Assembly (NCBI GenBank): GCA_947561395.2
Contig: OX387184.1
Coordinates: 19,865,687-19,929,686, forward strand
DNA: 64,000 bases
Source: Buxus sempervirens
Lineage: Eukaryota > Streptophyta > Magnoliopsida > Buxales > Buxaceae
Reading direction: 5' to 3'
Every line of letters starts with the position of its first letter. The stretch's first letter is position 1. Under the pieces are notes generated by a model. It ran no database searches. It had not been told where the DNA came from and was given only the letters and a program-made list of their open reading frames with translations. The position numbers and the translations under genes are program-made. Shown here piece after piece: positions 14,285 through 63,246 of this stretch.

Positions 14285-14306
14285 GGTCCTGTGAGACATG
14301 GATTCG

Positions 14307-19719: not shown

Positions 19720-19917
19720 GCCAAGCCAAGGGTAGAAGAGTCCCAAGGGTAGGCCTAAAAGGCCTTCTAGATTATTCCAATTCTCCTCCAAGGCTTGAAT
19801 TGGAGTAATTCAGCAAGTTTCGGAGGGTGAAATAGGGAGTTCAAGTCCCTAAGAGAGAGGTAATATGCGTAAATAAGGCTCAGAGATCGAGCCATTTCGC
19901 AAAGCCTCGAAACAGCC

Positions 19918-20187: not shown

Positions 20188-20304
20188 GCACTGATTTTGA
20201 AAGTTTTTGAAAGTTTGACACATGTCAAGGCTCAAATAAGACCTTTGGAGCCCTTCTTAGTTAATCTCTTATATTGGGGTGCAATTTGGGGTGTCTACAG
20301 GTCC

Positions 20305-23162: not shown

Positions 23163-25337
23163 CTAAAGAGATCCAGCAGCGGTGCCAGGTTCGTCGGTTA
23201 TGACTGCAAATGTTAAAAAAAATTGAATTAGCATCATATTCAGAAATAATAATAATTCAACAAGCATGTAATAGATATTAGATATTAAGAAAACATTTAA
23301 ATTACTTGATTCAGCTTCCTCAAGCTCTGCTAGGTTTTCCTCGATCTCAATCGGGATAGGAGAAGCCCGTAACCAATCTTGTGCACAAATCAAGCACTCC
23401 ACAAGTTTAGGTGTCAATGAGCTACGAAACTGATCAAGTACACGGCCTCTTGTACTGAATGCTGACTCTGAAGCTACTGTCGATACAGGAATTGCTAGAA
23501 CATCACGTGCTATGTGAGAAAGCACCCGAAATTTGGAATTGTTCAACTTCCACCAACACAAAATATCAAAATTAGAGTCATCTTTTTCAACACTCTCCTC
23601 CAAATATCTATCCAATTCAGATTTGGACTGAATTGTCTCTTCTTCTTCCAAATGTTTCCAGAACTCATCTTGAATACTCTTAATTTGGATGCATGAATCA
23701 GGGGGAGGTTGCTCAACTTCCATTTCATTAACATTTTGGCTTACATTGCTTGAAGAAACATTTGATGTAGAATCAAGTACTTGATAATGCCTAAATAGAC
23801 GGTCCATTGCTTCCCTCACTTTTGTAGTAAATTCCACTGCCTTCTCAACTGGGTAAACTCTTGAATAACAAAACTTCACATACTTTAACTTATATCTGGG
23901 GTCCAAAACCACTGCAATCAATAGCATCATATTCACTTTATCAATGTTTCCCCAATACTTATCAAATTTTTCTCTCATCTTCTTTGCCATATCACACAAA
24001 CAAGGATCATCACTGTTGGACCATTGAATTAAAAGACTTTCAATTCCACAAACTTCATGAAAATAAACATTAGAAGTTACATACAATGATCCTGACAAAC
24101 GCTTTGTAGCCTCATAAAAATTTTTAAGAAATTTGCATAAAACCTTTGCCTTTTCCCAATCTAATTCACTTGGGGGCCCATTCTTCAACTCTGTCAAAAA
24201 ATGTACATCATCCTCTTCAAGACGCTCAAAAGCCTTTTGAAATTTTAATGCTGCTTCCAACATAAAGAATGTTGAATTCCATCTTGTTGGAACATCCAAA
24301 CACAAAAGACTGTTAGATGCAATTTTTTCATTTTCAACACACCTTTTAAATTGTTGTTGTCTTCTTGGTGAACTCCTTACATATCTCACAGCCCCACGAA
24401 TTCGAGATACAGAGGTTTTCACCTCATTTATCCCATCTTTTACAATCAAGTTCAATATGTGAGCACAACACCTTATATGAAAATATTCACCATCCAAAAT
24501 TAGACCATTCTTCTTAGAAAACCTTCTTTTAAAACTTCAAACAGCTACATCATTAGATGATGCATTGTCGACAGTAAGAGTGCATAATTTTTCTATGTCC
24601 CGCCCTATCAAACACAACTCAACAGCTTTCCCAATGTCTTCTCCACTGTGGCTTGCAACTATACAAAAGTTGATTATTCTTTTTTGTAGCTTCCAATCCT
24701 TGTCAATAAAGTGTGCCGTGAGACACATATATGAAAGATTTTGTATTGACGTCCACAAATCTGTGGTCAAGCACACTCTATGATTACCCTTTACTAAAGA
24801 ATCTTTCAACCTCCATTTTTCTGTCATGTATAACTCCAAACAATCTTTTGTGACAGTAGTACATGACATTAGATTAAATTTAGGTTGCATGACATTACAA
24901 AAATCACGGAAACCTTCACGCTCTACGAACCTAAAAGGCAATTCATCAACAATCACCATCCTCACAAGAGCTTTTCGACACAAATCTTGATCAAATTTCC
25001 AAGTGGTAATAACACTCTCTCCTTCTTGTCCTAATGATGCAAATTTCAAAAGCCTTTGACTTTTCTCTTTCACATTATACGGGTATTTTGGACACTTTTC
25101 TAGATGCTTACAGAGAGTGCTAGTTCCATTAACACTAGAGCATGCATAATCATTAAGACAATAATTACACTTTGCCCTTTCAGATTTCCCCCCATCTTCC
25201 TTTTTCAACTTGGTGAAATGTTCCCAAACTACGGACCGTCCCTTATAGGGTCTTTTTACATTTGTTTCTATCTTTGATGCTTCTGTAGTTGCTTCAATAC
25301 TATCATCATTAGCCATACTCTCACTCATGCTTGACAT
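23163..25337 (-). pseudogene. hAT transposase (BED zinc finger, RICESLEEPER-like) with one in-frame stop
   Basis: One frame of about 725 codons, broken only by a TGA at 24537-24539. Seen in order: a BED-type zinc finger near residues 25-80 (VWEHFTKLKK, then C-x2-C in AKCNYC and H-x4-C in LCKHLEKC); the hAT core with TTDLWTS, TVDNASSND and, beyond the stop, CCAHILNLIVKDG; and the C-terminal hAT dimerisation region (CWWKLNNSKFRVLSHIARDV, VSTVASESAFS). The family catalyses cut-and-paste transposition in the nucleus. ATG 25337 (MSSMSES) is chosen over 25379 because the added residues look like leader. After about codon 680 the frame runs into a likely intron with acceptor ATTTGCAG near 23199, so the true C-terminus may differ. 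Its position inside the TIRs fits its role. The element cannot make full transposase unless the stop is read through. Confidence 0.9.
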
Positions 25338-27355
25338 ATACGATCTAATCAAGTTAAAAATAAAATAAATATCAAACAAACAAACATTTCAAATGAAGAA
25401 AAAAATAATTTGAGCAAACAGTTCAGCAAATCTGAGTATGTGATATTTAAGCTCAAAGAAATGGGAAAGATTAGCCAAAAATGTGCAAGTGTATATAATT
25501 TTAATAATACAAATGTGCAAAATTATGATATTTCTGTATATGATACAACCTTTGCAATAAAACACCAATTTAACATATCCTTAATTCCTTATCATAAAGC
25601 AAAGAGGTTATAGGTCCCCAATTCTTGCATCTAGTACAAGAAATAAAGCTGAATAAACAACTCTTTGAAGACAAGAAGAAACTTAAAGGGCAAATCATGT
25701 TGCACAGCCACCCCCAAAAACATGTATGGAATTCTCAAGTTACCATGTAAAATCATGCTGCACAGCTAGTTATTTAGGGGGGAAACAAAGTCAAATTAAT
25801 AATAATACGAAGTCAATAAGCGCATAATAATAATGCAGAGATGCCAATGTTGTGACAATCTACATAATCAAGAATATATGCTTTTTAAGATGTAAAAGAT
25901 AAATCACCAGGTACTATTCACACCTGTGATCAGAGATGAGCTTTTCAGTTTTTGATGTGGAGGTGGCAAGAGATTCTGACAAAACCTTCAATTTTTTGAC
26001 CTGCATGTCAATCAAACAGAACATATCAATGAAAAAATTTAATGAAACCTGGTGAGATTCACACACACTCACATAAACACGTATTTCAATTAAACAGGAC
26101 AAATCAATAACAATTATTTGGCTTTCAAAGCTGGGCGCTTAGGTAACATTTCTGTTTAAGTTAGCATCAATACAATTAGCAATTGACTTCCTTGTCTGGT
26201 TAAGGGAAAAAACATATAGCATGTGGATGTATATAAAGAGAGGGGTCTAGCCCTTCATGATGGGTTGTCACCTTTGAATTGAATATTATATTGAAAAGAG
26301 ACAAAATGTAAAAATTCCGGTCATAAAATATGGATGTGCAGCTTCAGGACAAAGTGCAAAAGTGTTCTTACAGTTTATTCTCTGCTGTTGATGCTGCTTC
26401 TATTAAAAACAAATAACGACTAACAAGAACTGTCATGTGTCTTCTGGCTTTACTCACAACAATCTTGCTACTGTTTTAAATTTTTTCTGTTTTCTTTCTA
26501 CAACTAATGCAAATTCTTACAAGCTTTATCAAACTGTTGATTTATTGCAGATACAACAAGCTTTCTTTTGATATTAACCATGCACTAAAATTTGGTATCA
26601 AAGAGATGAAAAGATAGAGAAGAAAAACAATAAGTAACACTTACATGAAGGACAAAACCACCCCCAAAATAAAATTATGGTGAGTGACACTTTCGGTCAA
26701 AGTGCTGTTGCCTAAAGACTCGTAAGACTTCCAAGTTTTTTGAAAGAATATCCTCTCTTTTATTTTATTTTTTCTTTTTCTTTTTAAATTTGTTCTCGGG
26801 CAACGAAGCAAATCAGAAACCCTATTCAAGACAAAATCTTCCATGGGTGGGTGGTGAAGATTAGGAACCTATATAAAGGTGGACCCCAATAGCTAGCAAG
26901 AAGATGCACATGAATGAGAAGTAGAAAATGGCGTGAATCAGAATGGACACACTACTAGTCTGGAAATTTCTGAACTCAATAAATCGGTTATGACTTGGAA
27001 CCTGAAACAGCAATCCCGACGTGAACAAAATGAAGAGCACCACCGACACGAATACTAGACCCTAGTCCGACATTCTTTCTTTTCTCTCTCCTCTCTCTAC
27101 TCTCTCTGTATCTCTTTCCAAGAGAGGATACAGGTCAGATAAACAAGTGATTAGGTCGATTACAAGCACTTAGTAGAAACAAGGAAAAGAAGCAGCGAGA
27201 TGAGTGAAACTGAAGTCTATCTTCGAGAAGATCGGAAGCCGTTTAATCAACACCAAATAAATTGGAGAAAACGCAGAAATTAGGAGAAAGATACAAGAAG
27301 AAATGGATTTGAGGAGAGGAGAACAAGAAGGAAGCAAAGGGAAAATAGGAATTAC

Positions 27356-27497: not shown

Positions 27498-29789
27498 GAG
27501 GGGGGTGAGGTTGTAATTTGTTTAAACTTTAAAGGTTAACTTATATAAGTTTTAATATTATATATAATAAATCGGTTCGGTTCGGTCTAGCTAATTACCT
27601 TAATTCGGTTCGGTTCGGTTTAACCGAACCGATTTAATTCGGGTTAGGTTTTTTAGGACCAAAACCGAACCGAACTGTAAAAAAAACCGAACCGAACCGA
27701 ACCAAACCGAATTCGATTTGGTTCGGGTCGGTTTCGGTTTTACCCGGCCCGAGTTGCAGCCCTACCTACATTTACTTCTTGAACTCTAGTACGGATTATC
27801 CAACCTCCTTGGTAGGTAAGTTCTATGTTGTCTCTCTTTAAAGATAAACATCATGGACGGTAAGAGATAAACATCATGAACACTTAAGTAATGGAAAAAG
27901 CCTATGGATTAGGATTGGAGGATAAATCTTTTATCAACTTTTAGCTTCCACCTTGTGAGACATGGAAATGTCATCTCAACTGACCTCCGATATCGTCACG
28001 CGGGGATCGATAAATGTAAAGAGTCGCCACCATCCATCTTAAGGTGTGAATGGGCACCAAAGGGTTCATAAAAGCCAAATAGAGCTAAAGTAGCTCTAAG
28101 ATAAGGAAAAATCCAGAGATTAGGTAAGGGGAATTATTTATGAGCAGGGGAAGGTATTAGGCACCCCCACTCATCTGTCTAAGACGGTTGCCACATGCTT
28201 GTTCATGCTAAGGATTGTTTGCTAATCAAAAATGACAAGGGTTGCTTAAAAGTAAGCCAAATGTAAATGATTATTTCACATGAGTAGTCCAATAAATATG
28301 AACTCTCTCCATGGATATATCACCTCTTAGAACTTTATGAGTGAATAAAAATCAAGGTGAAAATTGAAACAAAACCAATTCAAGGTAAATCTGGAAAAAT
28401 CAGATTATGAGAACTTGAAAGCTTCGATTAACCATAACTCACTCAATTTAAATCCAAATCCAATGAAACCAAAGCCATTTGAAAACTGGTATATAGTAGA
28501 GTATACAGTAAAAAATTCAGCTCAATCCGACTTAAAATGAGAGAGAAATCTACATCTGAAATCTGCTGTTTATAACTTAGAAAAAGCGATGAGTAGGCAT
28601 TTTCAAAGTCCTATTCGTGGAGTTTGGCTCAATAAAAATCCATGAAAATTGGTATGGAGGAAGTATGTGGTGCCATCTTTCCAAAGAAATAAGCCTCACC
28701 CCAAACTCTATCCGGATGTGGCTTATGTGCTCTCTTGAACAAGCCTAGAAGACCACAGATTAGCTCTGGACTGTGCCAGCGAGCAGCTCTGAGTCAATCT
28801 AGCACACAAGCCTCAAATCAAATCGAAATCTGCTGAAACCAGTTGGAAATGAAAATAGACTTCTTAAGGAAAACTCAGAAACTGGAATCACTCAAAACAG
28901 ATTAAAATTGAGCAAATGGTACACCATCAAAGCAGCAAGTTCAGCAATCTGGGCTGAACTGACTTACAGACTTTGAACAGATGGTGTCAAATATTGGCTT
29001 AATAAAAACAAACGAAATTTCCCAGATATAAACTAGACATGCTCATCTATCACATGTCTTTGGAATCACTCAAAAATTCATCCGGAGGATGAAGTTATAA
29101 GCATTCTAAGACAGGCCACAGATGCTGCCCTGTTTTGAAGATTTTGGAGAAGAAAGCCAAACTAGTGCATGTGTGCAAGTGAATTCAACCAAAATAATCT
29201 TGAAATCATGAAAAACAACTCATGAAGTTCTAAAAGTTCATTCTAAGGCCTGGGATATCAAAGTTTCCATATTGAACATGGAAAGTCCAAGATCTAGCCT
29301 ATTTGAAGAAAATAGTGAAAAGTGTGTGAAGAGGTGTGGAAAATCTCATTTCTAGGAGAAGGTTGGAATCCATTGCTATTGAGAACATGGATTTGTGCAT
29401 CTTCTCCATAGATAAATAGAAAAACAGATCAGAGAAGCAACCATAGGTTCAAAATAACCAATAAACATGCTCTTCATCATATGTAGGTTCTAAGCCTAAA
29501 GGGTCCATTCCACCTTCCTTTTCCCAAGGCTCTCTCTTCACGTTTTACGGCTAGAGAGGATTCCCAGGTACTTTGGAAGAGGTTTGGGGCTTGCAAACAA
29601 TCACACACTGGCTTTACACTACAGAAAGGTAGAAGTGGAGAGTTGAATGTAAAGAGGAAACAAGAAAATCAAATGGAGCTTTACCTTTGGTAGCTTGAAC
29701 ACTTGAGGCAGCAATCCAGCAGAGTTTTCCCTCTTCTTCCAGAGCTTCCAAGCTTCAAATTATCAACCATTTGCAAGAGGAGGACCCCT

Positions 29790-29799
29790 CTATTTATAG
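29790..29799 (-). promoter_or_regulatory. TATA box of Tat-like LTR copy c
   Basis: CTATAAATAG on the minus strand, in the same context as copy b (CTCTATTTATAGG on plus). Confidence 0.65.
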
Positions 29800-29997
29800 G
29801 CAAATCCAAGGGTAGAAGAGTCCCAAGGGTAGGCCAAAAAAGCCTTCTAGATTATTCCAATTCTCCTTAAAGGCTTGAATTGGAGTAATTTAGCAAGTTT
29901 CGGAGGGTCAAATAGGGAGTTCAAGTCCTTAAGAGAAAGGTAATATGCGTAAATAAGGCTCAGAAATCGAGCCATTTCGCAAATCCCCGAAATAGTC

Positions 29998-30266
29998 AAA
30001 ACCTTATACTCAGTGCGGTTTCAACAGAACCGTCACTCTAATACGGTTTCCATGCAAATTCAACCAAACCGCACATACAGGGCGGTTCAATTCAGTTACG
30101 CTCGTCATGATTGCTGTCGACGTATCTCAACGGCCGAAGCTTCCGGAAGCCACGTGGCAACTCACGTAACAAGCATGAATATCAACCGTGCTGTGTGTGC
30201 GGTTGCAACCGTACATACAGGGCGGTTCAGACCAAATTAACCAAAACCGCACATGCAGTACGGTTA
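29998..30266 (-). repeat. U3 array of GCGGTT-type palindromes
   Basis: Six units matching those in copy b, for example AACCGCACATACAGGGCGGTT and AACCGCACATGCAGTACGGTT, at the same spacing. Confidence 0.85.
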
Positions 30267-30308
30267 GCACCTTTTTGGTTGGTTTTGAGCCTTAGCTGCA
30301 CAGGCTAG

Positions 30309-37946: not shown

Positions 37947-38230
37947 CTAAAGATCACCCCTGACTTGTAGCCTGAGATCTCTGTCTAATGGCAGGCTAAA
38001 ACTTCAGCCCCTTCCACTTCCCTAGGTCTTGGAGTTGCTGCTTGTTTTCTGCCGCCTCTGCCTTTTAGTGCCTTTTCCTGGTTTGTTGTCTCTGGTGTGG
38101 GTCTCCGGGTTTTTCTTTCTTCCCAACTTGTTCTCTTTTTGCCTTGTGATTCGCCTTTCGCCTTTGGCAGCCCCCTTTTGTCTTGTTGTGCTTCGATTTC
38201 GGCGTGTTTCCTCTGTGCCCTTCTGGTCCC

Positions 38231-39831
38231 ATGGAAGATCTATCAAAAAAACTCAAGAATCTCATCATCCCCCTAGACCACACATCACCTTTAAACCCTC
38301 CGCAACTGATAGAGCCAGGGCTGATAGTAAATGGGGCGCCATACTCATCTGCGAAGTCCCGGGAACACAACTTCATGTAAATACTCTGAAAAATTTCGCA
38401 GCTAGAGTTTGGAAGCCCATTGAAATTGTCTCAATAACCCAAATCTCTGAAAGCCGATTTATCATAAACTTCAAGAACAAACAAGACCGAACGACCATCA
38501 CTGCGGCCCAGCCTTGGACTATTAATGGCCAACTTATGCGATTCAAAGAGATTGAAGATGACAAGGAAGCCACCACTGCGAGACCAGACTCCATCACTCT
38601 TTGGCTTCAGATCCACAACTTGCCTCTTAAGTACAAGGAGAGATCCATCATTCAGCAAATGATGCTTCACATTGGCAAGGTCTGGGAAATAGATTGCAAT
38701 GGCGAAACCTTGGATAGCTTCCCCACTGCTCGTATCACTCTTCCGATCTCCAAACCCATTCCGTCTGGCTTATTCTTTGAAGAGGATTCTGGTACCAAGG
38801 TTTGGATTGAGTTCAGATACGAAAACCTCCCCACTATCTGCTATTCTTGTGGGCTTCTTGATCATGACCTTGTCGTTTGTGATAATCCCTTCCTGTCTGA
38901 GAGCTTGGATGGTGAAGATGCTAGCAGTGAGAGATTCTATGGGCCTTCTATCTCTACTCTGCCGATGAGGAGGAGAAACCCCCTGCTCAGGGTCATCCCC
39001 AAGCTCCCTGTCCATGAGGAAAGGTTCTCGGAGGTGGTGACCTCGGAGACGTGTCTCAGGGAGAGGAACTCGGCTCTGGACATCGTTTCGGCGAGTCAAC
39101 TCGGATCGGTGTCAGGCCAACGTTCAAGAGACTCCTCGAGCCCATCCCCGATGGCATCATCTTGCAGAGAGCCGTTGATCTCCTCGTCCAGCGATCCGAT
39201 ATCCTCCTCTAACCCGATGACCTCCCCCGACCCAAAGAGCCCCTCCAACTCGTCCTTTCATGAATTTTGGGTCAATCTTAACCCAGTCCACAACCCATTT
39301 ACCCACGACCCTAATCCTTTGCATTTTAAACCAAACCAAACTTCCAGCTTTCCTAAGCCCATTTTTTATCAAGCTAAACCACTAGGCCCAAACAGTGCAA
39401 CCCACCCTCTCGATGCTGCCCCCCAAATGAAAATCTTCTCTTTCGGAGCCCAGCTATCCAACCCCAACGCTCCTCTCCTGAGTCAAGCCAACCAAACCCA
39501 CCTCACCCTAAGCCTCATTTCTGATAGAATGAAAGTTGACCAGCCCAACCCATTTAGGAGGCGAACCAGAGATACTAAAAATAGTCCAAGACAAACTCAT
39601 ATGGGCATCATTGAGGCAGGATCAAGCAAAGGCAAAACTACAAGACTTTCTGGGAAGGGGAAGGAGGTCTGCACATCTAGTAAACGAAGAAGAACAGAAG
39701 AGCTCGACTGCTACAGTCAGTGTTTTCCTCACAGTGATAACAGCCCTCGGTTCAGTGCTGGTATTCATATTGAAAGTGATAAAAGTCTTAAGGGGCCCCC
39801 TTGGCCCGAAGGTTCATCACGAATGTTCTAG
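38231..39831 (+). pseudogene. LINE ORF1, nucleic-acid binding protein (DUF4283 and zinc knuckle)
   Basis: The likely start is ATG 38231 (MEDLSKKLKN), in a different frame from the main body, so one frameshift lies near 38300-38340. The body has a DUF4283-like region (TLKNFAARVWKP through INGQLMRFKEIED, about 38380-38560), LPLKYKERS, and a zinc knuckle (C-x2-C-x4-H-x4-C: CYSCGLLDHDLVVC, about 38840-38882). A Ser/Pro/Asn-rich tail follows with a basic stretch (SSKRRRTEE, about 39680). In plant L1 elements this protein binds the element RNA and forms the RNP. The frame also runs upstream to 38029 through T-rich leader, which I do not take as coding. Confidence 0.85.
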
Positions 39832-42800
39832 CCTGGAATTGTCGAGGGATCGGGCAACCCTCGACAAAGCAGTATTTAAGGTTCCTCTGTAGGAACCTTA
39901 AGCCCAACATGGTCCTTCTGTCTGAGACCATGGCATCTGATAGGAGTTCGGAAAAAAACATCAGGCGATTCGGATTCAAAAAATTTTTCTAGGTTGCATC
40001 CAGAGGCCTCTCTGGGGGATTCTGGATTCTTTGGGACGCTAGTCTTGCGGTGGAGGTCATTTTCCATGACACTTGGCTAGTCCACCTTCTGCTCAATAAG
40101 GACTCTTCAAGGGAAACCAGTGTTACATTCATTCATGCGGGTCACACAGCTGTGGTTCAAAGACACCAATGGAATCAAATCAGATCAATAGCTGAACATC
40201 AACATTGCCCATGGCTCCTCCTTGGCGACTTCAATATAGTTATGAGCCAGAGTGAAAAGCAAGGAGGTAAAAATTACAAGGTATGGTAGGCCAACCAACT
40301 TCGGGATCTCATCTCTGACTGTCAACTTCTTGGTCTTCACCCTAAAGGCCTCAAATTTACTTGGGACAATGGAAGAGCGGGTAATGGTAGAATAAGGGAA
40401 AGGCTTGATCGCGCCTTCAGCAACCATGAATGGTTCCTCAAATTCCCGAATTCTATCATTACTCAGGAGCCTATCCTGGGATCTGACCACAGTCCTTCCC
40501 TCATCCAAACTAACCCGATCAATCAAAAAATTCAAAAACCATTCAGATTTGAATTTTTTTGGATGGAGGAGAAAGACTGTGAAAATTTAATAGACCAGGA
40601 ATGGAGAAACGGCATTGATAAATTCTGGAACTTAACAGATCGGTTTGACTACCTGGGAAACAAGCTGACCCAGTGGAATAGGAAAGCCATTGGAAATCTG
40701 CATGCTAAAGCCTCCAATCTCTTCCATGAGCTCAAGGCCCTCCAAGTCTCCCTTGAAAACCACAATGATCATGACCTTAAAACCAGGGAGCAAAAACTCA
40801 GAAGAGATTATTTTCATGTTCTAATCCAACAAGAGACCCTATGGGCTCAGAAATCCCGCATAAGCTGGCTGACTGAAGGTGATTTAAATACTAAATTTTT
40901 CCATATCTCCACTCTCAATATGAGACAAAGAAACAAAATCACCTCTGTTAAGGATGAAAATAATCATGCTTTCTCTGATCAAAAAAACATTGAAAAGTGC
41001 TTTGTTGAATACTTCACTAATATCTTCCATGAGAGTAACCAGAACAGGGAGATACAGCAAACGGGACTGATGGAGGCCATGGTCAATGAAGATGATAATC
41101 ATCAGCTCCTCAGACCTGTGACAGATGAAGAAATCCTCCTTACTGTGAATGGAATGGGCTTAAGGAAAAGCCCAGGCCCTGATGGTTTCCAAGGGCTGTT
41201 CTACCAAAGATATTGGGACATTGAGGGTCCCCAAATTTGCAGCATGGTAAGGGAATTTTTTAGATTTGGAATTCTTGATAGTGGTGTCAACCATACCTCA
41301 TAACCCTCATCCCCAAAGTTGAGCAACCCATCAGAACCTCTGAATTTATGCCCATCAGTTTGTGTAACTTTAGTTACAAAATTATTTCCAGGATAATGGT
41401 TAACCGTATGAGACCTATCATGGGGAAAATCATCTCCCCAAACCAAAGTGCCTTTCTTGCCAAAAGATCGATACATGACAACATTATCCTTGCCCAAGAA
41501 ATCATGCATTATATCAGGGGGAGAAAAAAAGGTAATAGGGGGAGCTTTGCCTTAAAAGTTGATTTGTCAAAAGCCTACGACAGACTTAGATGGGATCTTA
41601 TTCATAAGGTCCTTAAAGAGGCGGGGTTCTCTCACCATTGGACATACCTGATCATGAAATGTGTATCAACAGTTACTTATTCTATCCTTGTTAATGGGAT
41701 TCCTTCGGGTCACATCATCCCTTCTAGAGGCATTCGGCAGGGGGACCCTTTGTCCCCCTACCTTTTCATTTTAACTCAACATGTCCTCTCCAAGGCTTTA
41801 CTCGATGCTGAAACGAATGGCTCAATCCATGGAGTAAAAATCAGTAGCAGAAGTCCCCATATCACTCACCTGATGTTCGCTGACGATCTTCTCATCTTCG
41901 GAAAAGCTACTCAAAGGGAAGGTATGTTTATGCTTAGAACTCTTCACAATTTTTGCTCCTTGGCGGGCCATGAGATTAACCTAGGAAAAACTGAGCTTAT
42001 TGTTAGCCCCTCCATCAAGGGCAGATGTCGTGGGATAATAAGTAGGACCTTTGGAGTTAAGGCCAAAATCAAATTTCAGAAATACCTTGGCATTCCCCTT
42101 GCCGATGGTAGAATGACAAATGAGCTCTTTGCTGATGTTTGTTCTAGAATAAGTGCCAGACTGGCTTCTTGGAAAGCCAATCTTCTATCCCAAGCTGGAA
42201 AAGCCACCCTGATCAACTCAGTGATCATGGGAATGCCCCTCCATATCATGTCTTGCACAAAGCTCCCCTTTAAAACCACAAACTTTATTGAAAAAGAATC
42301 CAGGTCTTTCTTTTGGGCTCAGCCTAAAAAAGCCAAGACTTTGCACACCATAAGCTGGGACCATAAGCTGGGATAAACTGTGTAAACTTGTTAATGCTGG
42401 AGGGCTCAATTTCAAAAATTTACGGGTGTTCAATGAAGCACTCCATGCTAAAAAGGGTTGGGAGCTTTTGGCAAATGTGGAGAGCTTCTGGACTAGGTTC
42501 TTCAAGACCAAATACTTTAATGGTACCTCTTTTTTGGAAAGCTCTTCTAAAAATGCAGATTCTCGGATTTGGAAGCATCTCAACAGCACAAAGGATCTAA
42601 TAAAAAAAGGTCAAGGTTGGAACATTGCTAATGGCAGATCCATTGACATTGAAGATAATAGCTGGATCCCTAGCGCCCTTATGGATACTAGGCCCAACAG
42701 GAATGCATTGCCTCATGTTATATCCGTTGCTGACCTCCTCTCCCAGGAAACCAGACAATGGAAACTGGAATTGCTGAACCAACTCTAGAACCCAGACATA

Positions 42801-43937
42801 GTCAATATCATCAAAACGGTTCATGTTAGTCACAACAATCCAAAGGATGTTCCCATCTGGAAACACGACAGAAGGGGTGATTTCTCTGTCGCCTCTGCTT
42901 ATAGAATAGCAACGTCGAGTGATGATCATCTTACTAACAGGTGGTGGAAGAGAATTTGGAGGATCAAAGTACCTCAGAAGATCCGAATGTTTGTTTGGAA
43001 ATTAATGCAAGGAGGTATCACCACCAGTGATGTTCTACATAAGAGGCTGCAACTCCTTCCATATGATTGTGTCCTCTACGGCGAAACAAACGAAACTGCC
43101 CTCCATCTGTTTACTGAGTGTGATTTCTCTCGGGCCATCTACTTTGCCGGTGCTGGAGGCAGGCTTGACTCTCTCCAGACACAAGAAAACTGCAAGGAAT
43201 GGTGGTTTGAAAGGGTCAAAGAAAACCGGGAGGAGCCATTAAGGCTAGCCGATCTGGTTAATCTTTGCTGGATTGCATGGAGAGCACGAAATCAGGTAAT
43301 CTTTGAGGGATCTAAACCAAACCTTACACTAAGTATATCTTCTTTTCTGTCTCTACAGGAGGATTCAAAGAAGATGATGAAAACCAAGCAGAGGACAAAG
43401 TCAGCTGAGGAGATCATAGTGAAATGGATGCGCCCCAAGGAAGGATGTACCAAACTTAATGTAGACGGAGCTTCAAGGGGTAACCCAGGCAAGGCAGCAT
43501 ATGGCATTATTTTGAGAGGGGACGAGGGGCAATTCATGGCAGCAATGGCGCACTCATTTGGCAACACCACAGCAATTGTAGCAGAAGCCTTCGCTATCCT
43601 CGAAGGGCTTAAGCTTGCCCAAGCAAGGAATATCCAAAAGATTGAAGTTGAAAGTGACTCCAAGAGCATCGTGCAATTCATGAACAACGAGTGCCTTGAC
43701 GTCCCATGGTCTGTCGCCAATATTGTCCAAGAGGCAAAGTATCTGTGTAGGGGATTCCAAGTCATTTCTTTTACTCACATCTTCAGAGAAGCAAACTCCG
43801 TAGCTGATGCATTAGCAAATTTTGCCCTGGATGACTACTCTTGTGTTTGGATTGATCACCCCCCTTCTTTTATTGGTCCTCTTCTCTCTTCGGACTATTT
43901 GGGAGGGGCTTATGTAAGATGTTCCAGGAGACTTTAA
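39801..43937 (+). pseudogene. LINE ORF2 polyprotein: endonuclease, RT, zf-RVT, RNase H; broken
   Basis: Endonuclease: AWNCRGIG (39828), LLSETM (about 39912), GDFN (40224-40235), SDHSP (about 40482). Reverse transcriptase: KSPGPDGF (about 41168), VDLSKAYDR (about 41560), RGIRQGDPLSPYLF (about 41727) and catalytic FADDL (41876-41890). A zf-RVT-like segment lies near 42987-43130 (FVWKLMQGG, ALHLFTECDFS). RNase H: DGASRGNPG (43464), AEAFAILEG, ESDSKSIV, ANSVADALA (to about 43820). Breaks: stops at 39990, 40287 and 42786; a one-base loss near 41295; and a frameshift at a duplicated CCATAAGCTGGGA (about 42350-42375). The family nicks target DNA and reverse-transcribes the element RNA there. Plant L1 elements with a C-terminal RNase H form a known subgroup. 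Confidence 0.92.
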
Positions 43938-49640: not shown

Positions 49641-50549
49641 ATTTTCACAAGGCAGACCTATTCAGTACTTTGGTAGTTCAATCATTGATACAGATCTGAA
49701 GCTCACTCCAGCTAAGCTAGAGATGATCGAGGTTTTCGTTTTTTTTGCTACTATCTCCAAGTGCCTCAGAAAAGAAAATTTCCATCAATGATTTTGTTTT
49801 TTATTTTTTCTTAATTTAAGATATGCTTGATTTTTTTTTCGTCTTCTTGTTTAAATATATGCTTGTGCTCTGTTCATGAAATCAATCGACATAATGTGCA
49901 TGGGCATCACACTAAATACTATAACGGGATATAAAGAAACTATTTGGGCTATTTCTATGTAAAGCCAAAAAGTACTTGTAAACACCAATGCAAACAATCC
50001 TGCATGCCTTCTGTGGCTCTAATACTATAACGGGATATGTGCCCCTCATCTCTCAGTTGAGATACAGCAGTAATATCCAAGATTTTAACTTTAGTGCCCT
50101 TCACAGCACCCTCAATAACATGGTCATTGGATCCATCTTGCCAAACCTCACTCCCTCCAGCCAATGGAAAGGTGTTATCGCGGCTACCCCCGGTGTTCCA
50201 ATCTCCATTGACAAAATGCCGAGGTGAAATAGTCCTGAAGAAAGCCTTGAGTTGGGGAAGCAGAGGAAGCTGTGAATCAAACCACTTGGCAACACTGTGA
50301 ACTGTAAAGTTCTTGGCATTCCCAATCTCTGCAAGTTTCTTATCTTCGTTGGGCATGTCATTCACATGCATCACCCATCTATTAGCTCTTAGTTTTCCTC
50401 TGTTCCAGTGATGTCCTGTATTAAGAACCAAGACATTAAACCTGTGAAGGTACTGTCTCAAAAAGCCCGCTGGACGGTCATGATGCATAGCATACTCAGT
50501 GTATGGATTTGTCATGTTCAAGGGCTCCAAGTTGCAGAGGGTGGCAGAC

Positions 50550-51618
50550 TGTTTACACCCGCCGTAGCCTGGCGGTTGAATTGAATTTTATGTGGCTACA
50601 AGTCCCCTTAAATAGGGAAGTGGGTCCATTAAGAAACCCCATTACGTGAAAGGTTGGCTACAAGATAGAACTCTCTAAAAGAACATGGGAAGTGGGGTCC
50701 CCCACTTTCTAAAAACGTGGGTGGTTTGTAAGGTGGGGTTCAACTTCCTAAAAGTGGGTCGTTGGGAGACTTTGTGGTCAAGCAAAACGGATAATAAATA
50801 GGGACCTACAGACAAGGGAAAGGGATCCCTCGATCAACACACAACTACACTAGCTATTCCAGTCTCCTCAGACCTCTTATTCGGTCTTCTCAGACCACCC
50901 TACTCTCATGCTATCTTCATAGAATGAAATATTATATCCTCCTGTTGCTTCCTATCACAACAACACATAAAGATCCCCCTTACTCCTAGACAAGGCTAAG
51001 AAGGTACACCCTACTCCAATCATAGCTAGGTACGATCTTAAGATACGCCCTCCTCTGATCGCTAGGTACGATCTTGCTTAACCCTTCAAGCAAGGCTAAG
51101 GGCAGTCACGATGTGCACCCCGGAACTAGTAATCTTCAAGGCGGCCCCCGATCTCTTCTCTCTATACTACCGATCACGGCTATAGGGAAACAGAAGGCAG
51201 GTACCGAGATTTTATTGGTCTTCTTTTTACTTTTTTATTGATTCTCATCACCACCCATCCTTGAAATGGCCATCACCCCACACGGCCCATCCATCCTTGA
51301 AACGGCCGTCATCCCAAACGACCCTCAATTTCTGCAGATTCTACATCAAACGGTCAACACCAACGTGGCCGTCATCAATATTGCCATAAAATTGGGGGAA
51401 GAACCTTGGAGGATGAACCCCAACCCTCTTAGCAATCGCCGGATCAGAAGTCTTCCAATCTATAGGCGACCGGGTCATATCTAAACCGCAACCCGTCTAA
51501 TTTTGCATACGAACGACGTCGGGATCAAAAGTTTCCGACTCCTTCCTTGCATCGGCACAAATGCTGGCACGCCCGCACACTCACACGTCCCTAAGCCAAG
51601 CCGGAAATGATGGCAACA
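50550..51618 (+). mobile_element. solo LTR, 1.07 kb, inside the TBL pseudogene
   Basis: Ends TGTTTACACCCGCC and GATGGCAACA, with a perfect TSD CAGAC (50545-50549 and 51619-51623). Removing it joins the TBL frame exactly, which confirms both borders. TAATAAATAGGG near 50790 could be its TATA box. TGTT...AACA ends suggest Copia; not certain. Confidence 0.9.
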
Positions 51619-53632
51619 CAGACTAATAACAAAGTACTGTGGTATTAGCGCTTGGGAACCAATAAGTCCAACCATTAGGATGAATAGCGCCACGAGCTTT
51701 GACAAGACCGTACTCTCTTTGTGAGACACGGGAAAAAATCACCGGAATGATCATCCTTCCGTCAACAAGCGGGGCTCAATGTAAAAATTGGGAGAGTCGC
51801 CACCATTCATAGTTTTGGGGTGTGAATGGACACCAAAGAGTTCAAAAATAAGCAAAAAGGGTTAAAAAGCAAATTCTAGAGTAAAAAAAACCCTACTTGA
51901 AAATCAAATCCAGAGATGGGTAAGGGGATTAGATTATGAACGGGGGAAGGTGTTAGGCACCCCCATTCACCCACACAAGGTGGTTGCCAAGTGTTTGTTC
52001 ATGCTAAAAGGATAAGAAAGCTTGCTAAAAATCATTAAAAACATTGGAAAAGAATTAAGCCAATGTGTGATATTTTCACATGAGGAATCCAAATGGACTC
52101 TAGATCCTCTTTTATGTCAATATCACTTCTGGAATATCAACAAAAATAGAAATCCAAAGCAAAAGTTGGACAAAACCAAGTTGAGGTAAATCCGGGAAAT
52201 TTGGTGAAAAGCAATGCCATTTGTATTGAAATCATTCAAAATCAATTTTAAATTGAATCAAACCAAATCCATTTGAAAGATCTTGGTAAATAAGAGACTC
52301 ATGCAAAATTTCAAGTCAATCCGGTTGAAATCCTAGGAGTTATGCTCCTTTAAAGTTGCTGCAGGGGATGATTAAAAGTAGCAAGTAGGCAACTTTGGAA
52401 AATCACCTAGAAAAATCTACTCCATAGAAATCCGTGAAATTTGGTGTCAATGAAATCTGTATGGCCATCTTTCAAAAGAAACTAGCCTCATACAAAAATT
52501 CATTCGGATGTGCCTTGGGTGACTTCCCGAACAGGCCCCGAGGATCACAGATTGACCCAGAAAAGTGCTGTTGAGCAATTCTGAGTAAATCTGCTCTCCA
52601 CGACACAATTTAAATCAAAAAATTATGAAATCAATTGGATTTAAAAATAGACTCATAAAGGAGTGCCCAGAAACAAAAATCACTCGAATCGGATTTAAAC
52701 GAACACATGGCGCTCCGTCGAAGTGACAAGTTCTGTATTTGAACCTGAACTGTCCAATCAACTTCGACAAAGAGGTGTCAAAAATCCGCTTGATAGAAAT
52801 TAATGAAATTTGATGGACATAAACTAGACAGCCTCACATTTCCCATGGTTCTAGAATCACTTCAAAATTCATCCGGACGATGAAGTTATGAGTGTCCGAA
52901 GTAAGGGTACAGTTGCTGTCAAGTTAAGCCCTTTTTGGAGAAAAACAATTCAAAATTGTGACAAAGTGTGTGCAATTCGTGCAAGATGAATACAAAACCT
53001 TTAAAAACCTTTTAAAAACATTCCAGAATTGATTGAGGCCATTTATTTCAGATTTATCACAATAAATGCAATAAACCCAACATATGAGCATATCCCGCCA
53101 AAATCATGTTATGTATGTGCAAGTGTGAAAAACCATACAAGATCAATACAACAACATAGCATGCATACATATTCATCAAAATAAGGTTCTAAAACAGCCT
53201 AGGGTTCCGTTCCATTATCGTTTCCCTTTGTTCTCTCTCCCCGTTAAACACGGTTCTTCAAGATAATCAAGGGTACTTTGAATATGAAACGGTTTACAAT
53301 CAATCAAAAGGCTTTATGCTACATAGGTTCTAGCACTATGGTCAATCCCTAGTCTTGTTTCTCCTAGATCCCGCCTTCACGTTTTACGGCTAGGAGGAGT
53401 CTCGAGATACTTTGAGCCGGGGAAGGATTTTCACACATATAGAAGGCCTTATTCTACAGAAAGGTAGAAGAAGAGATCTAGATCTAGAAATGTAAAGACA
53501 AAAATTAAAAGAGGTTTGAGGCTTACCTGGGTTCTGGAAGCACTTCCGCAGCGGTTTCCCTCTTCTCTTGGAGCTCTTCTTGGCGAGAATTCAAAACAAG
53601 AGTTAATGGCCATTTGCTTAAGGAGGAGCCTC

Positions 53633-53642
53633 CTATTTATAG
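53633..53642 (-). promoter_or_regulatory. TATA box of Tat-like LTR copy e
   Basis: CTATAAATAG on the minus strand. Confidence 0.65.
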
Positions 53643-53807
53643 GCAAAGGCTAGGGTTAGGGTTGGTGAGAATGGTAGACACAACATAAGGTCTATAGCCC
53701 ACCAACCTTAACCCTAAGGCTATTTCCGAGATTTCCCTTCATTTAATGAAGGACATGATGGTAAAAGATGAAATCTCTCGGAAAACCCTAATTTTGAGCA
53801 AAACTAA

Positions 53808-53973
53808 TGTATCCGGCATATCAGGCCGGATACAAAAAGGTCTTAATGTATCCGGCATATAATGCCGGATATACTAAGGATTGCTTGTATCCAGTATGTT
53901 GACTATGTTCCACCGGATACAAAGGAAAATACTTGTATCCGGCCTGAGTTGCCGAATACAAGGAAAAAAGCCT
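53808..53973 (-). repeat. U3 array of GTATCCGG-type palindromes (four units)
   Basis: Units of about 25 bp such as GTATCCGGCATATCAGGCCG followed by GATAC. The third unit is longer and diverged, and the fourth has GCCGAATAC. Confidence 0.85.
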
Positions 53974-54000
53974 TTTTTCCGAATTTTAACGCAGGCAATA

Positions 54001-56845: not shown

Positions 56846-57378
56846 ACTGGCAAACATCTATATGGTGGTACTTCTAATTGTGAGGCCACACACTAGTTAA
56901 GGCCTCGTTTGGCTTTCATTTTAGGAATTCATTCCAAGCCTTGGAACTCATTCCAAGCCTTGGAATGAATTCTGATACCAAAATGAGTGTTTGGTAAGGC
57001 ATGCAAGAACTCATTCTATAAGAATGAAAATGAGAAAACCCCTGATTTTCAGAAACGGCTTCAACCCCGTTTTTGGATTTGGGAATGGGTTTTAAGTTTT
57101 ATGCGGTGGCAAACTTGTAATTATTGGTAACTTTAAGCAATAGCATAAAATGTAAATATGACTATTGAGCCTTCTCACCTTTAATAAAAGGCTTTCCAAT
57201 CGTTGAAGAAGAGGAAACTATTCCTCTTCTTCTTCGTTGCTGCTACTCTGGTTATTGAAGGGGAAAACGAGGGTTTCTACTATTTTGAAAGGGGGAGAAC
57301 AACAGACACGTACCTCTCCATCTCTCCCCCCATCTCTGTTTCTGATCCCTTCATCTGCCGTACAAACCCTTCTCTTCC

Positions 57379-57582
57379 ATGTCTCCTATTCTTCTGTTTC
57401 TGCGTCTGTTTCTGTTGAGCTTCGAGGCTACATCTGTTCCTGTGGGATCTCGTTCGATTCTTCGAGCTATCAACGGTCCTGATCCTCCTGATGCCGCCGT
57501 TGATTTGAACAACACCAATTTTGATTTTGTTCTCAGAGAGTCGCCGGCTTTGTTCGCCACCGTTTAAATTTTCGCTAATTGG
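57379..57582 (+). pseudogene. captured first exon of quiescin-sulfhydryl oxidase (QSOX)
   Basis: ATG 57379 opens a signal peptide (MSPILLFLRLFLLSFEATS), then VGSRSILRAIN and VDLNNTNFDFVLRESPALFA. This matches the N-terminus of plant QSOX as I remember it: signal peptide, SRSILR, then VxLNxTNFDxVL before the thioredoxin domain. QSOX makes disulphides in secreted proteins. A TAA at 57565-57567 replaces the expected Glu codon, and FANW follows in frame; the usual CPAC active site is absent because the fragment ends at W. The 180 bases before the ATG may be QSOX leader or promoter. Confidence 0.8.
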
Positions 57583-57935
57583 TGAGTTAATCTAGATCCA
57601 AACCTTCTGGTATCTATGTAACTTTTTGAAATGTTTATGATATTTGGTTTTCGAATAGCTTGTCCGATTAGAAATCTTCGAATTACTTACACATGTTCTT
57701 ATGATTTTTGCATTAGTGACTGGTTTCAGTGACACTTTTGAAAATTTTCTGCAAATGAATTTTAGTTCTGAAAATTTTGGAAATTTGTTTCGAAAACAAG
57801 AGCTTCTTTGTGTTTCATATCCATTCGGTTCATCTGTTTCAATCTTATTCTTGTGTTCTGAAGCTTTATTATTGTAGGTTTTATTTACGATATTTTGTTC
57901 TCTCTTGTTTAGCAAACTCTGTTGGCTTGTTTCAG

Positions 57936-58004
57936 ATGATGGGGTATATTTCATTAGTTCGTGAAGTGGCATTATTTGCAGCTGTTACATCTGCGGTCCA
58001 AAAT
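57936..58004 (+). other. possible captured exon of unknown gene (23 codons)
   Basis: A clean open stretch between a good acceptor (TTGTTTCAG) and donor (GTGAGT), coding MMGYISLVREVALFAAVTSA plus VQN. The length is a multiple of three. I do not recognise the source gene. Confidence 0.4.
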
Positions 58005-58967
58005 GTGAGTTTAGTTTACTGCTTGGTATATTTTGATCTTGTCATGCCCTTAGTTCTATTTTGATGATAGCTTTGTTTATTATTTTAATTTAATAGACTT
58101 GTTAGATGCACTTTGCAGCCCCTGGAGATTGTTTTAGTGGCTGTACATTCATGCTTCTGCGTTTTTGTGTTCGTCTTTTAAGAATGTGTACAATATGTTA
58201 ATATTTTTTAAAGTATTAGATGTTTTGATAAATTACCATAACTGTGAAACTGTTTAGTAAAATTCCTTCCGTTTGGTGTTTATCAAATCTGTTCCACTGA
58301 TTTTTTATCGCTTCTAGTTTGATACCATGCTTTCATTGACTTTAAAGGACCAACTAACGGTGCATAATGTTCTATCTGTTATAATCTCTGAGTTCCTGCA
58401 TTTATTGATCCTACAGTGTATTATTTTCTGTTGTCATTCTACTTCAATAATTTGAATATCATGTGAAGATCTGCATTGGCTCAACCTGGGTAACCCTCCC
58501 ACTATTCCTCTTATGCTGGGCACTTTCAATTCAGTGAAATATAATTGGCTCCTTGGTTTCTGTATGTGCAAATTAATCAGATTAAAGTGAATACCTTCTG
58601 GGATTTAATCCACCTCCATTAACGGTGAAGCTCGTGAAGGCTTCCAATTTTAGTTTGAAAGATACTTTCTATGGTCAAGAACCAAGTACAATGTAGACTC
58701 TCTTTTTTTTATTTTGACCAAGTAGTTATAGATTGCCTAAGATGAGATTCTACCTTCATTGAGATGATCCTTTAACTTGTCAATGCAGATGCATGTTGAA
58801 GCAAAAGGGGAAGCCTCATACCATCTTCCATTTGTCTGTGTAGTGGGGTACACAACTCCATTCCTTTTGTGTTGGCCTTGAGGTTAGTCTTAGATTTTAG
58901 TCATGAAGATGGGTTTGGTTTTTGGAACTTTCTCAAGTCTCATACCATCTTCCATTTGTCTGTGCAG

Positions 58968-59150
58968 GGCTCACCTGATCTGAAGGCTCAAGTCTCAGAG
59001 CAAGCACTCCTATGTTCCTTGTGTCGCACAAGATAAAGTCGCTCGGAGTGAAGATGGTCATCTCCGGTGAATGTTCTGATGAGATATTTGGTGGGTACTT
59101 GTACTTCCACAAGGCACCAAACAAAGAAGAGTTCCACTGTAAGACGTGTT
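58968..59150 (+). pseudogene. captured asparagine synthetase exon fragment, internally deleted
   Basis: After an intron end (TGTGCAG, 58961-58967) it codes GSPDLKA. Sequence coding the next stretch is missing, and it resumes at [40 protein letters not shown] and [11 protein letters not shown]. Plant glutamine-dependent asparagine synthetase has GSPDLKAA and later [40 protein letters not shown] in its ATP-dependent synthetase domain (from memory). The change GEGSDE to GECSDE hits a conserved glycine. The two parts are in different frames, so it cannot make that domain. Plus strand, same as the QSOX piece. Confidence 0.92.
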
Positions 59151-60465
59151 ACTTCCACATGGATGTGATAGGACTTTGTGACTTTACTGATAGTTGCTAT
59201 CATTATGTGTTTTAAATTAATAGACATAATTAGCAAACCCATCCTTTATTTTGTTTTTGTTTTTCATTTCTTAGGTGTTTCAAGTTTTATCTTTCAAGGA
59301 TCAACCAATTTCTTATAATTATTCATGGAAAAAGAAAAAAAAAGGGAAAAACAAATTTCATGGAACTCATTTTATTACTTGTTAACCAAACAGTTTTCTA
59401 GGTGAAAATTCATTCTGCTACGTGCTAACCAAACGCAATTAGAAAGACTTCAAAATTGATTCGCAAAATGCGTTTTAAGAACTCATTCTCGGAATGAGTT
59501 TTAAGAACTCATTCTCGGAATGAGTTCCTAATCCGGAATGAAAGCCAAACGAGGCCTAAGTAATCTGCCAGGGACGTTCTATTGGGAGTGTATTTACTGC
59601 TAGTCTATATTAGTTCAGTACCCAGTGAGGGACGCCCACTGGAAGAGGATATTAAGATGATTTGTACTGTTAGCAGACATTATGCTAATTCAGTACCCAG
59701 CGTGACCTTGATGTCTACTGGAATGTGATGATGGTTATTCTTTCTTTACGTTAGGTTATTTATTTCTGTTATTTATATTTCTGCAAGGTGTATGTCTATA
59801 AAAATTCACAAGTAAGTATTTCTAACTCTTTAGATCAAAGTTTAATTATTTGATGTTAATCATGTTTAATTTATTATTCTTATATTAGAATGCATGATCC
59901 CTTATGTGGAATATTGTTAATATTAATGTAAATATGTTATGAATTAAACTTAAGAAAATTTTGCATGCTTAAGGTTAATAATATTAAATATCTATTTGGT
60001 GTATATATATTATTTAAATAAGGAATATTATGCATATTTTCATACAAGGTGTATTAGCCTCACTTACTGGGTTTCTTTGAGACTCACCCCTTATATTTTC
60101 ACAGGAAACCTGCAATCCTGAGATAATGAAATGTAGTGACAAGATGGTGATTGGAATAATGAACATGTTGTTGAGATGTTATTGCTTTGGCAAGAATCTT
60201 TGAATTGATGTATTTTATGAACCATTAGGGCTCAAGATTGTAACTGGATGTATTTGGATAAACCATGGTTCGGGCTGGTTCAATTTTGATTTTGATTTGT
60301 TATATTGGTTTAATTTCCGTTGTAACTCTGAGTGTAGAAATATTAAATGAAATTTTCAAGTATTTATTAGTAAATAAACATATTTTGGGATTCGCTTACG
60401 AGCAAGGTTATGCTCGGTCCTACTCATGCATAGTAAGTCGTGAGGTGAGGATTTAGGGCTTGACA

Positions 60466-60951: not shown

Positions 60952-62844
60952 CATACTGTGAGACATGGGAAAATCACCGGAATGATCATCCCTCCGTCAA
61001 CACACGGGCTCATCGCAAAAATGGGAGAGTCGTCACCATTCATGATTTTGGGGTGAGAATGGACACCAAAGGATCAAAAATAAGCAAAAAAGAGACAAAA
61101 GAAACATTCTAGGATAAAAACAATCCTACTTGAAAATCACATCCAGAGATGGGTAAGGGGATTAGATTATGAACAGGGGAAGGTGTTAGGCACCCCCATT
61201 CATCCACGCAAAGTGGTTGCCAAGTGTATGTTCATGCAAAAAAAATAGAAAGCTTGCTAAAATCATAGAAAACCTTAAAAAGGACTAATGTATGATATTT
61301 TCACATGAAGATCTAAATGGATTTTAGATCCTCTCTTATGTCAATATCATTTCTGGAATATCTCAAAAGATGGAAATCAAAGCACAAGTTATTCAAAAAC
61401 CAAGTTAAATCAAATCCGGAAAATTCAGTAAAAAGTATGCCATTTGTCTTGAAATCATTCAAATCTAATTCTAAATTGAACCAAACCAAATTCATTTGAA
61501 AGATTAGGGTAAATAAGAGTCTCATGCAAAATTTCACTTCATTCCGATGAAAATCATAGGAGTTATGCTCCTTTGAAGTTGCTGCTGGGGATTTTTAAAA
61601 GTGATAAGTGGGCAACTTTGGAAAATTGCATAGGAAAATCCACTCCATGAAAATCCACGACATTTGGTGTGATTGAAGTCTGTATGGTCATCTTTCAAAA
61701 GAAACTAGCCTCATACAAAAATCCCTTCGGATGTGCCTTGGGTGGTCTCCCGAACAGACCCCGAAGATCACAGATTCACCCAGAAAAATGCCATTGAGCA
61801 GTTCTGAGTAAATCGGCTACCAATAATTCAAATGGAATCCAAAAATTATAAAACTAACTGGATTTCAAAATAGACTCATAAAGGAATACTCAGAAACAAA
61901 AATCACTTGAATCGGACTTAAAACGAACACATGGCGCTCCGTCGAAGTGACAAGTTCTGTATTTGAACCTGAACTGTCCACTTAACTTCAACAGAGAGGT
62001 GTCAAAAATCCGTTCGATGGAAATTCATGAAATTTGGTGGACATAAACTAGACAGCCTCACCTTTCCCATGGTTCTGGAATCGCTCCAAAATTCATCCGG
62101 ACGATGAAGTTATGAGCATCCGAAGTAAGGGTACAGGTGCTGTCCAGTTAGGCCACTCTTGAAGAAAATCCAATCTGAAAAAGTGATAAAGTGTGTGTGA
62201 TTCGTGTGAGATGAATCCAAAACTTTTGAAAATCACTTGAAAACACTCCAGAATTGATTGAGGCCATTTATTTGAGATTTATCACAATAAATGTAATAAA
62301 CCCCAAATATGAGCCTATCCCGCCAAAAGAGTGTAATATGTGTGCAAGAGTGAAAAACCAAGCAAGATTAATACAACAACATATCATGCATATAGATTCA
62401 ACCTGATAGGTTCTAGCATAGCCTAGGGTTCCGTTCCATTATCGTTTCCCTCTGTTCTCTCTCCCCGTTAAACACGGTTCTTCGAGATAATCAAAGGTAC
62501 TTTGATTATAGAACGGTTTTCAATCATTCAAAAGCCTTATGCTACATGGATTCTAGCACTAGGGTCAATCCCCAGTCTCGTTTCTCCTAGATCCCGCCTT
62601 CACGTTTTACGGCTAGGGGGAGTCTTGAGATACTTTGAGCCGGGGAAGGATTTCCACACACAAAAAGAGGCTTTATTCTACAGAAAGGTAGAAGAAGAGA
62701 TCTAGATCTAATAAATTAAATACAGAAAATAAATGAGAGTTGAGGCTTACCTGGGGTTCTGGAAGCAATCCGGCAGCGGTTCCCTTCTTCACTCGGAGTT
62801 CTTCGATCTCCAAAAACTTGGTCATTTGCTTGAGGAGGAGCCTC

Positions 62845-62854
62845 CTATTTATAG
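62845..62854 (-). promoter_or_regulatory. TATA box of Tat-like LTR copy f
   Basis: CTATAAATAG on the minus strand. Confidence 0.65.
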
Positions 62855-63008
62855 GCAAAGGCTAGGGTTGTTGGTAGACACAACTTAATGTCTAGAACCC
62901 CCCAACCTTAACCCTAAGGCTGTTTCCGAGATTTCCCCTCATTTAATGAGGGACATGATGGTAAAAAGTGATTTCTCTCGGAAAACCCTAATTTTTGAGC
63001 AAAACTAA

Positions 63009-63152
63009 TGTATCCGGCATCTCAGGCCGGATACACTAGAGCTTTAATGTATCCGGCATATGATACCGGATACACTAAAGGTTCCTTGTATCCGGCACTT
63101 GAGACCGGATACAAAGGAAACTACTTGTATCCGGCCTGAGTTGCCAGATACA
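63009..63152 (-). repeat. U3 array of GTATCCGG-type palindromes (four units)
   Basis: Four 25-bp units with arms GTATCCGG and CCGGATAC. Their centres all differ (for example CATCTCAGG, CATATGATA, CACTTGAGA), and the last has CCAGATAC. Confidence 0.9.
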
Positions 63153-63246
63153 GGTAAAATTTTGTTTTCTCCAAATTTTGTGCTGGCTTTCAAGGAGATG
63201 ATGATTTTTGATGATTATTTGTACAATTTGGGATGTCTACACATAC

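Follow-up and report, generated by a model that had tools for sequence, protein, structure and literature searches.

The analysed stretch of the Buxus sempervirens genome (64,000 nucleotides of contig OX387184.1, hereafter the window) contained, at positions 56901-59556, a 2,656-bp non-autonomous PIF/Harbinger (Tourist-like) element carrying fragments of a QSOX gene and of an asparagine synthetase (ASN) gene. The genome searched for its relatives comprised 676.5 Mb in 247 contigs, written here as C1, C4 and so on, with the window at C4:19865687-19929686. The element was enclosed by terminal inverted repeats (TIRs) matching at 20 of 20 positions and by a TAA target-site duplication on both sides, as the first-pass annotation of this DNA had described. 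The window held three perfect 20-mer inverted pairs no more than 6 kb apart, two of which were registers of the element's own pair, and only the element's pair had a TTA/TAA duplication. No 20-mer inverted pair was present in any of 20 dinucleotide-shuffled windows. The transposon's own sequence made up the first 437–443 and the last 398 bases of the element, and the cargo between these arms was about 1.8 kb long, intron included. With PIF/Harbinger arms, TIRs, a target duplication and host gene fragments between the ends, the Harbinger-type Pack element is real. No transposase was identified when four typed pieces of the element were scanned with Pfam along with 10 stop-to-stop frames, out of 18 that are at least 48 aa long.

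The left part of the cargo matched a QSOX gene on C10 (C10:34719275-34719693) at 93%. Exon 1 of this gene reads ...FAIVEFFANW, and CPACRNYK, HYEKVARLFNG and HYEKVARLFNGPDAVHPG were present in later frames. Farther along the same strand, an Erv1/Alr domain was present in two halves (2.4e-9 and 1.4e-7), one of which matched QSOX1 structures (1.7e-11); QSOX is defined by a Trx domain together with an Erv domain (PMC3616962). When the element's QSOX exon alone was searched against PDB and Pfam, no support was obtained and only a PDI-like protein appeared, at E 1.5. The source gene, with its Erv1/Alr halves downstream, nevertheless upholds the proposed QSOX first exon. An in-frame TAA, which the first-pass annotation did not mention, leaves an open frame of 62 codons in this exon.

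The right part of the cargo was assigned to asparagine synthetase by Pfam (PF00733, 3.4e-13) and by its match to E. coli AsnB (2.1e-27). The ASN source gene was located at C1:70.02 Mb, where coding pieces run from MCGILA to FSDGVGYSWIDG. Window positions 58842-58992 matched C1:70024258-70024409 at 96%, and positions 58995-59152 matched C1:70023874-70024031 at 94%. Between them the element lacks 226 bp of the gene, and the frame is shifted. Gly349 of AsnB (1ct9 numbering) is Cys in the element, so that a conserved glycine is lost. What had been described as one ASN exon fragment with its intron acceptor is indeed ASN, but it consists of two exon pieces around an 85-bp GT-AG intron, followed by a third piece. 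Introns kept in this way agree with the proposed capture at the DNA level, and the QSOX and ASN pieces both lie on the plus strand, as had been noted. The recognised gene pieces are not spurious, as each has a source gene, at 93% identity for QSOX and 94–96% for ASN.

The arms of the element were searched for throughout the genome. Of 825 candidates, 40 were scored, and the match counts are therefore lower bounds: excluding cargo copies, at least nine left-arm and at least 23 right-arm matches were found elsewhere. Eight arm-bearing loci were fetched, and six of these were read end to end (L016-L020 and L023, the other two being L021 and L022). Two of them, L018 (5.5 kb) and L019 (6.0 kb), contained a DDE_Tnp_4 transposase piece (1.9e-12 and 4e-13, respectively), and L018 also had a Myb/SANT frame (Myb_DNA-bind_3, 2.3e-24). 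The DDE_Tnp_4 match in L020 was under the curated cut-off. These three loci are probably full-length relatives of the element, and because its arms are common to transposase-bearing relatives, we place the element in the PIF/Harbinger family. Target duplications were readable in five of the six relatives and were TAA, TAA, TGA, TTA and TCA, the last being read as a changed first base; that of L016 was unread, as the coordinates ended short of its right end. TAA/TTA is described as a signature of Tourist elements (PMC10004981), and in maize and rice the majority of annotated PIF elements, not all, have a TTA/TAA duplication (PMC8903248). A same-family element of 2.54 kb with a TGA duplication (L017:922-3461, C22:27.285 Mb) contained a peroxidase piece (PF00141, 4.3e-23), which we take to be class III and which sits in a 205-codon open frame starting inside the transposon arm. 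The family may have captured genes repeatedly.

The ASN-bearing cargo was present at no fewer than four loci: the window, C15:10.72 Mb, C1:14.16 Mb and C12 (four of the 16 match rows, with all 15 candidates scored). Other copies in the genome had been suggested, and three were thus found. The C15 copy was full length. The copy at C1:14.16 Mb (L010) reached only to element position 2244, falling a few bases short of the joint between ASN and the right arm, and gave way to unrelated DNA; this truncation may reflect a loss or an older form. The C12 copy (L011/L013, C12:12.989-13.052 Mb) was interrupted at element positions 1824-1829 by an insertion of about 62 kb, which begins TGTAACGCCCCG and has a 6-bp duplication, AGTTAT. 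Target duplications matched in all three copies with both ends (TAA in the window, TAA on C15 and TGA on C12), and the four copies differed from one another by 1.0–1.9% in substitutions. The TAA stop, the left joint, a 33-bp extra copy of ASN sequence, an ASN filler and the glycine change were common to all four, and the ASN/right-arm joint was common to the three copies that reach it. Because the four copies have the same stop and the same internal joints, they point to one capture followed by amplification.

A relative of the cargo without TIRs was found at C1:43.63 Mb, here called locus A, where C1:43629752-43630583 matched element positions 434-1266 at 97.4%. Its QSOX exon has the TAA stop of the element and a further 2-bp loss. 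On its left side, locus A has 27 bp more of the QSOX leader, past the point at which the element switches to the transposon arm. On its right side, it enters the ASN gene at position 7139 and remains homologous to position 7877, with recognisable exons, at 87%. BLAST found no PIF arm beside it (E 1e-4, 29.9 kb around the locus, at least 11 kb on each side), and there was no inverted repeat of at least 16 bp between locus A positions 6300-11320 and 12900-18000, where two A/T-rich ones of 14 bp were seen. Because of the missing PIF arm, the extra QSOX leader and the ASN exons beyond, we take locus A from its sequence to be a pseudogene chimera in which QSOX, the third piece and ASN are fused, and not a decayed element; since that leader is absent from the element and these exons lie past the element's ASN, it also does not appear to derive from the element. 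Over the QSOX stretch at element positions 444-845, 20 sites unite locus A and the four copies against the gene, three set the copies apart and two set locus A apart (columns with gaps or differing among copies were left out).

The ASN of the element stops at gene position 7127 and that of locus A starts at 7139. In a gene of several kb, we roughly put the probability of this 12-bp closeness arising by chance at under 1%, and the closeness suggests that a common ancestor held both ASN parts. As QSOX, the third piece and ASN exons are joined at a locus without TIRs, the QSOX-ASN chimera is probably older than its capture by the transposon. The first-pass annotation had regarded the same QSOX-ASN arrangement without TIRs as evidence against its proposal; locus A largely has this arrangement, except that the element's ASN exons are absent there. 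Of the claimed multi-gene capture, the presence of both QSOX and ASN fragments in the element stands, and assembly by the transposon itself is unlikely, given locus A.

Between the two gene fragments lay a third and a fourth piece (Table 1). The third matched C1:15551709-15552600 at 81%, with blocks of 83–90%, and for positions 57751-57822, ahead of it, locus A was the sole source found. A third exon had been proposed within this piece. Its acceptor CAG occurs only in the window copy, being CGG in the other three copies and TGG at locus A, and the relative at C1:15.55 Mb (81–90%) is without about 36 bp there, so the claim is not upheld. The genome search gave 16 match rows, and nine of them contained the fourth piece, a 109-bp repeat. 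At C4:49.68 Mb (L046) this repeat lies between cytochrome P450-like frames (p450 5.9e-31, one frame), and other loci with it are on C4, C1, C9, C11 and C6.

Table 1. Features of the element and its immediate borders, in window coordinates.
Feature	Position	Strand	Basis or match
Left TAA target-site duplication	56898..56900	.	read from the window
Left TIR, 20 bp	56901..56920	+	matches right TIR 20/20
Transposon's own left arm, with subterminal palindrome 56925-56972	56901..57337	+	91-99% to nine other left-arm matches
CTCT microhomology at arm/QSOX joint	57334..57337	+	chance of such an overlap or a longer one 0.021
QSOX 5' leader, exon 1 (57379-57581) and start of intron 1	57334..57750	+	93% to QSOX gene on C10
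Stretch also at locus A, without TIRs	57334..58166	+	97.4%
In-frame TAA (GAA in QSOX gene)	57565..57567	+	common to four copies and locus A
Third piece, no gene recognised at its relative	57823..58715	+	81% overall to C1:15.55 Mb
Exon-like piece of the first-pass annotation	57936..58004	+	exon status unsupported
Fourth piece, 109-bp multicopy repeat	58713..58821	+	98% to C4:49.68 Mb
33-bp extra copy of ASN intron end (ASN gene 6685-6717)	58811..58843	+	joined to mid-exon ASN via GCAG
ASN exon piece WGTQLHSFCVGLE	58842..58882	+	AsnB match, ASN gene alignment
Kept ASN intron, 85 bp, GT-AG	58883..58967	+	ASN gene alignment
Start of next ASN exon, GSPDLKA	58968..58988	+	AsnB match, ASN gene alignment
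Filler CTCAAGTCTCA at internal ASN deletion joint	58987..58997	+	also at 58932-58942
ASN piece RASTPMFL...NKEEFH	58995..59152	+	94% to ASN gene 6970-7127
10-bp filler TACTTCCACA at right joint	59150..59159	+	also at 59102-59111, 48 bp upstream in ASN exon
Transposon's own right arm	59159..59556	+	at least 23 other right-arm matches in genome
Right TIR, 20 bp	59537..59556	-	matches left TIR 20/20
Right TAA target-site duplication	59557..59559	.	read from the window

Short overlaps and locally copied sequence were observed at the joints. Besides the CTCT at the arm/QSOX joint, the overlaps were CT between the repeat and ASN (chance 0.18), GCAG between the ASN intron end and ASN mid-exon (chance 0.022, read in the C1:14.16 Mb copy) and TCA between the filler and ASN (chance 0.062). 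Three stretches, of 33, about 9–11 and 10 bp, were copied from nearby ASN sequence. The 33-bp stretch occurs once in the ASN gene, where WGTQ is exonic and is not directly preceded by an intron. The 11-mer at the ASN deletion joint has one further occurrence only in the window, 55 bp upstream. The cargo has two near repeats of at least 11 bp, a number reached or exceeded in 14 of 500 shuffles. Because 2–4 bp are shared at four joints and three stretches are locally copied, the joints were likely made by template-switching repair.

Taken together, these observations make it fairly probable that a ready-made chimeric pseudogene was taken into a PIF element by template-switching repair and then amplified in trans to four or more loci. 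Aberrant template-switching repair would first have built a host chimeric pseudogene from a disabled QSOX 5' end, the third piece and part of an ASN copy. DNA of this chimeric locus, or of a sister locus, would then have come between PIF arms via short shared sequence and copied fillers. The transposase of the full-length relatives would have moved the resulting element, amplifying it to the loci seen here. The ancestor of locus A would still have had the element's ASN exons, and locus A would have lost its middle later. We infer the ancestral ASN exons at locus A, the repair mechanism, the order of events and the mobilisation in trans; the patchwork of pieces would serve as cargo of a transposon moved in trans.

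Several points weigh against this explanation. Locus A is without element positions 1267-2252, and the full TIR-less QSOX-ASN chimera was therefore not seen intact; QSOX and the third piece may have come from a locus-A-like place, with the rest added later. In small trees one node had a support of 0.195, and the branching among the copies was weakly resolved. At locus A, the joint had no exact overlap by script and a 2-bp insert, and the other ASN filler joint had none by script (its anchor being non-unique) and 1–2 bp by eye. Single overlaps of 2–3 bp are below significance, and the overlap scores refer to the four joints named above; where the third piece meets the repeat, the joint falls in a T run. 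The joint between QSOX and the third piece was unlocated, as the 72 positions ahead of the third piece have only locus A as their source.

Other routes were weighed against the same evidence. Two neighbouring PIF insertions flanking the chimeric locus could have been mobilised jointly with loss of their inner ends (the Catoni/Gisby model), which has been described for Pack-CACTA elements and invoked for Pack-PIF elements (PMC8903248) and would fit uptake of a single contiguous locus. Between about 57001-57900 and 58801-59460 there was no interior inverted repeat of at least 12 bp, although the inner ends may be deleted, and the ASN-copied filler at the right joint suggests repair synthesis instead; we consider this route somewhat unlikely. 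Stepwise capture, in which a PIF element took QSOX, the third piece, the repeat and ASN from separate loci and locus A is a by-product, would account for four different sources in one element, and two-gene capture in steps has been described for maize Pack-PIF #18 (PMC8903248). However, locus A has QSOX leader that is absent from the element (the same arm joint is present in all four copies), has ASN exons past those of the element and already joins QSOX to the third piece, which makes this unlikely. A further possibility, decidedly unlikely, is that the capture event left locus A behind as its scar. A PIF insertion in a QSOX-ASN chimera would then have been the site of excision or repair synthesis, by which the central part of the locus passed into the element, leaving locus A with a gap complementary to it (the element's ASN stops at 7127 and that of locus A resumes at 7139). 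If that were true, both the donor scar and the captured product would survive, and they would show that a plant PIF element captured its cargo through template-switching repair.

Two further ideas were considered very improbable. The chimera might be expressed and yield something useful, such as a short secreted peptide derived from the QSOX signal sequence, and the QSOX leader, the signal-peptide-like exon and the 62-codon open frame would be in keeping with this. The same stop, however, is present at the pseudogene locus A, and because of this stop (57565), the ASN frame shift and the Gly349Cys change, a useful chimeric reading frame is not supported by the sequence. A Helitron, Mutator-like element (MULE) or CACTA element nested in a Tourist miniature inverted-repeat transposable element was likewise rejected as the capturing agent, with scarcely any probability left to it. 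A hairpin followed by CTAA-T at 59528 is superficially like a Helitron end, and a second such site occurs at 56972, but both hairpins form part of the PIF arms' subterminal repeats, the scanned zones contained no inner inverted repeat of 12 bp or longer, and the QSOX leader is joined directly to the left arm.

Other features were noted in the window. Long repeats of about 1.7–2.3 kb were found at 51720-53987, 60957-63179, 17902-20191, 27970-30270 and 5-1726; the closest pairs were 82–88% alike, and one pair brackets the element. These are perhaps the long terminal repeats of an old retroelement, with no clear primer site seen. Positions 38026-43937, 23163-25388 and 49955-50587 held a long interspersed nuclear element-type element (RVT_1, zf-RVT, RNase H), a hAT transposase in two frames and a PC-esterase gene piece. 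Together with the QSOX and ASN genes, these sequences are in keeping with a flowering plant. A 130-codon open frame on the minus strand was rejected as a gene, its length being reached in 50 of 500 shuffles and Pfam giving no match. Rfam and tRNA scans gave no matches, and none was found in a scan of viral contigs for the TIR.

Rice Pack-MULEs likewise contain gene fragments captured between TIRs, and they differ in belonging to the Mutator superfamily, whose TIRs and target duplications are longer. Within the PIF elements themselves, the grapevine Pifvine-3 elements carry transduplicated gene exons and introns (PMC2528002), as does the present element; in that account the capture adjoins the transposase region, whereas the present element is non-autonomous. 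The maize Zm-Pack-PIF cluster #18 holds fragments of two genes in one element (PMC8903248) and shares with ours the PIF TIRs, the two gene fragments and the amplification, together with the TTA/TAA duplication described there for most PIF elements. Its fragments are of 163 bp and 58 bp in grass elements of about 0.5 kb, in contrast to the roughly 1.8 kb with an intron described here, for which a TIR-less relative of the cargo was also located in the genome. Gene capture by PIF elements is in print, for exons together with introns and for two genes within one element (PMC2528002, PMC8903248), and this kind of element is thus already known. QSOX/ASN capture by a Harbinger element was not found in a literature search that was narrow and did not have QSOX among its terms, and the element's peptides and TIR gave no relevant match in literature text. 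Animal Pack-TIRs, explained by gap-filling/FoSTeST, resemble the element in breakpoint microhomology and template switching followed by amplification through transposition; they differ in being animal elements, neither PIF nor Harbinger is named in the main text of that work, and plants are left open there (PMC8277862).

There is still debate over how gene pieces come to be acquired by the DNA transposons of plants. In a 2026 review it is allowed that an alternative, undiscovered mechanism may exist (PMC13317346), and gap-filling or FoSTeST has been called worth exploring for plant Pack-MULEs (PMC8277862). The element described here offers a dissected test case: a single genome shows both source genes, a relative of the cargo that has no TIRs, and several of the joints, all readable base by base. 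It also advises caution, as apparent multi-gene capture can be the uptake of one already chimeric locus.

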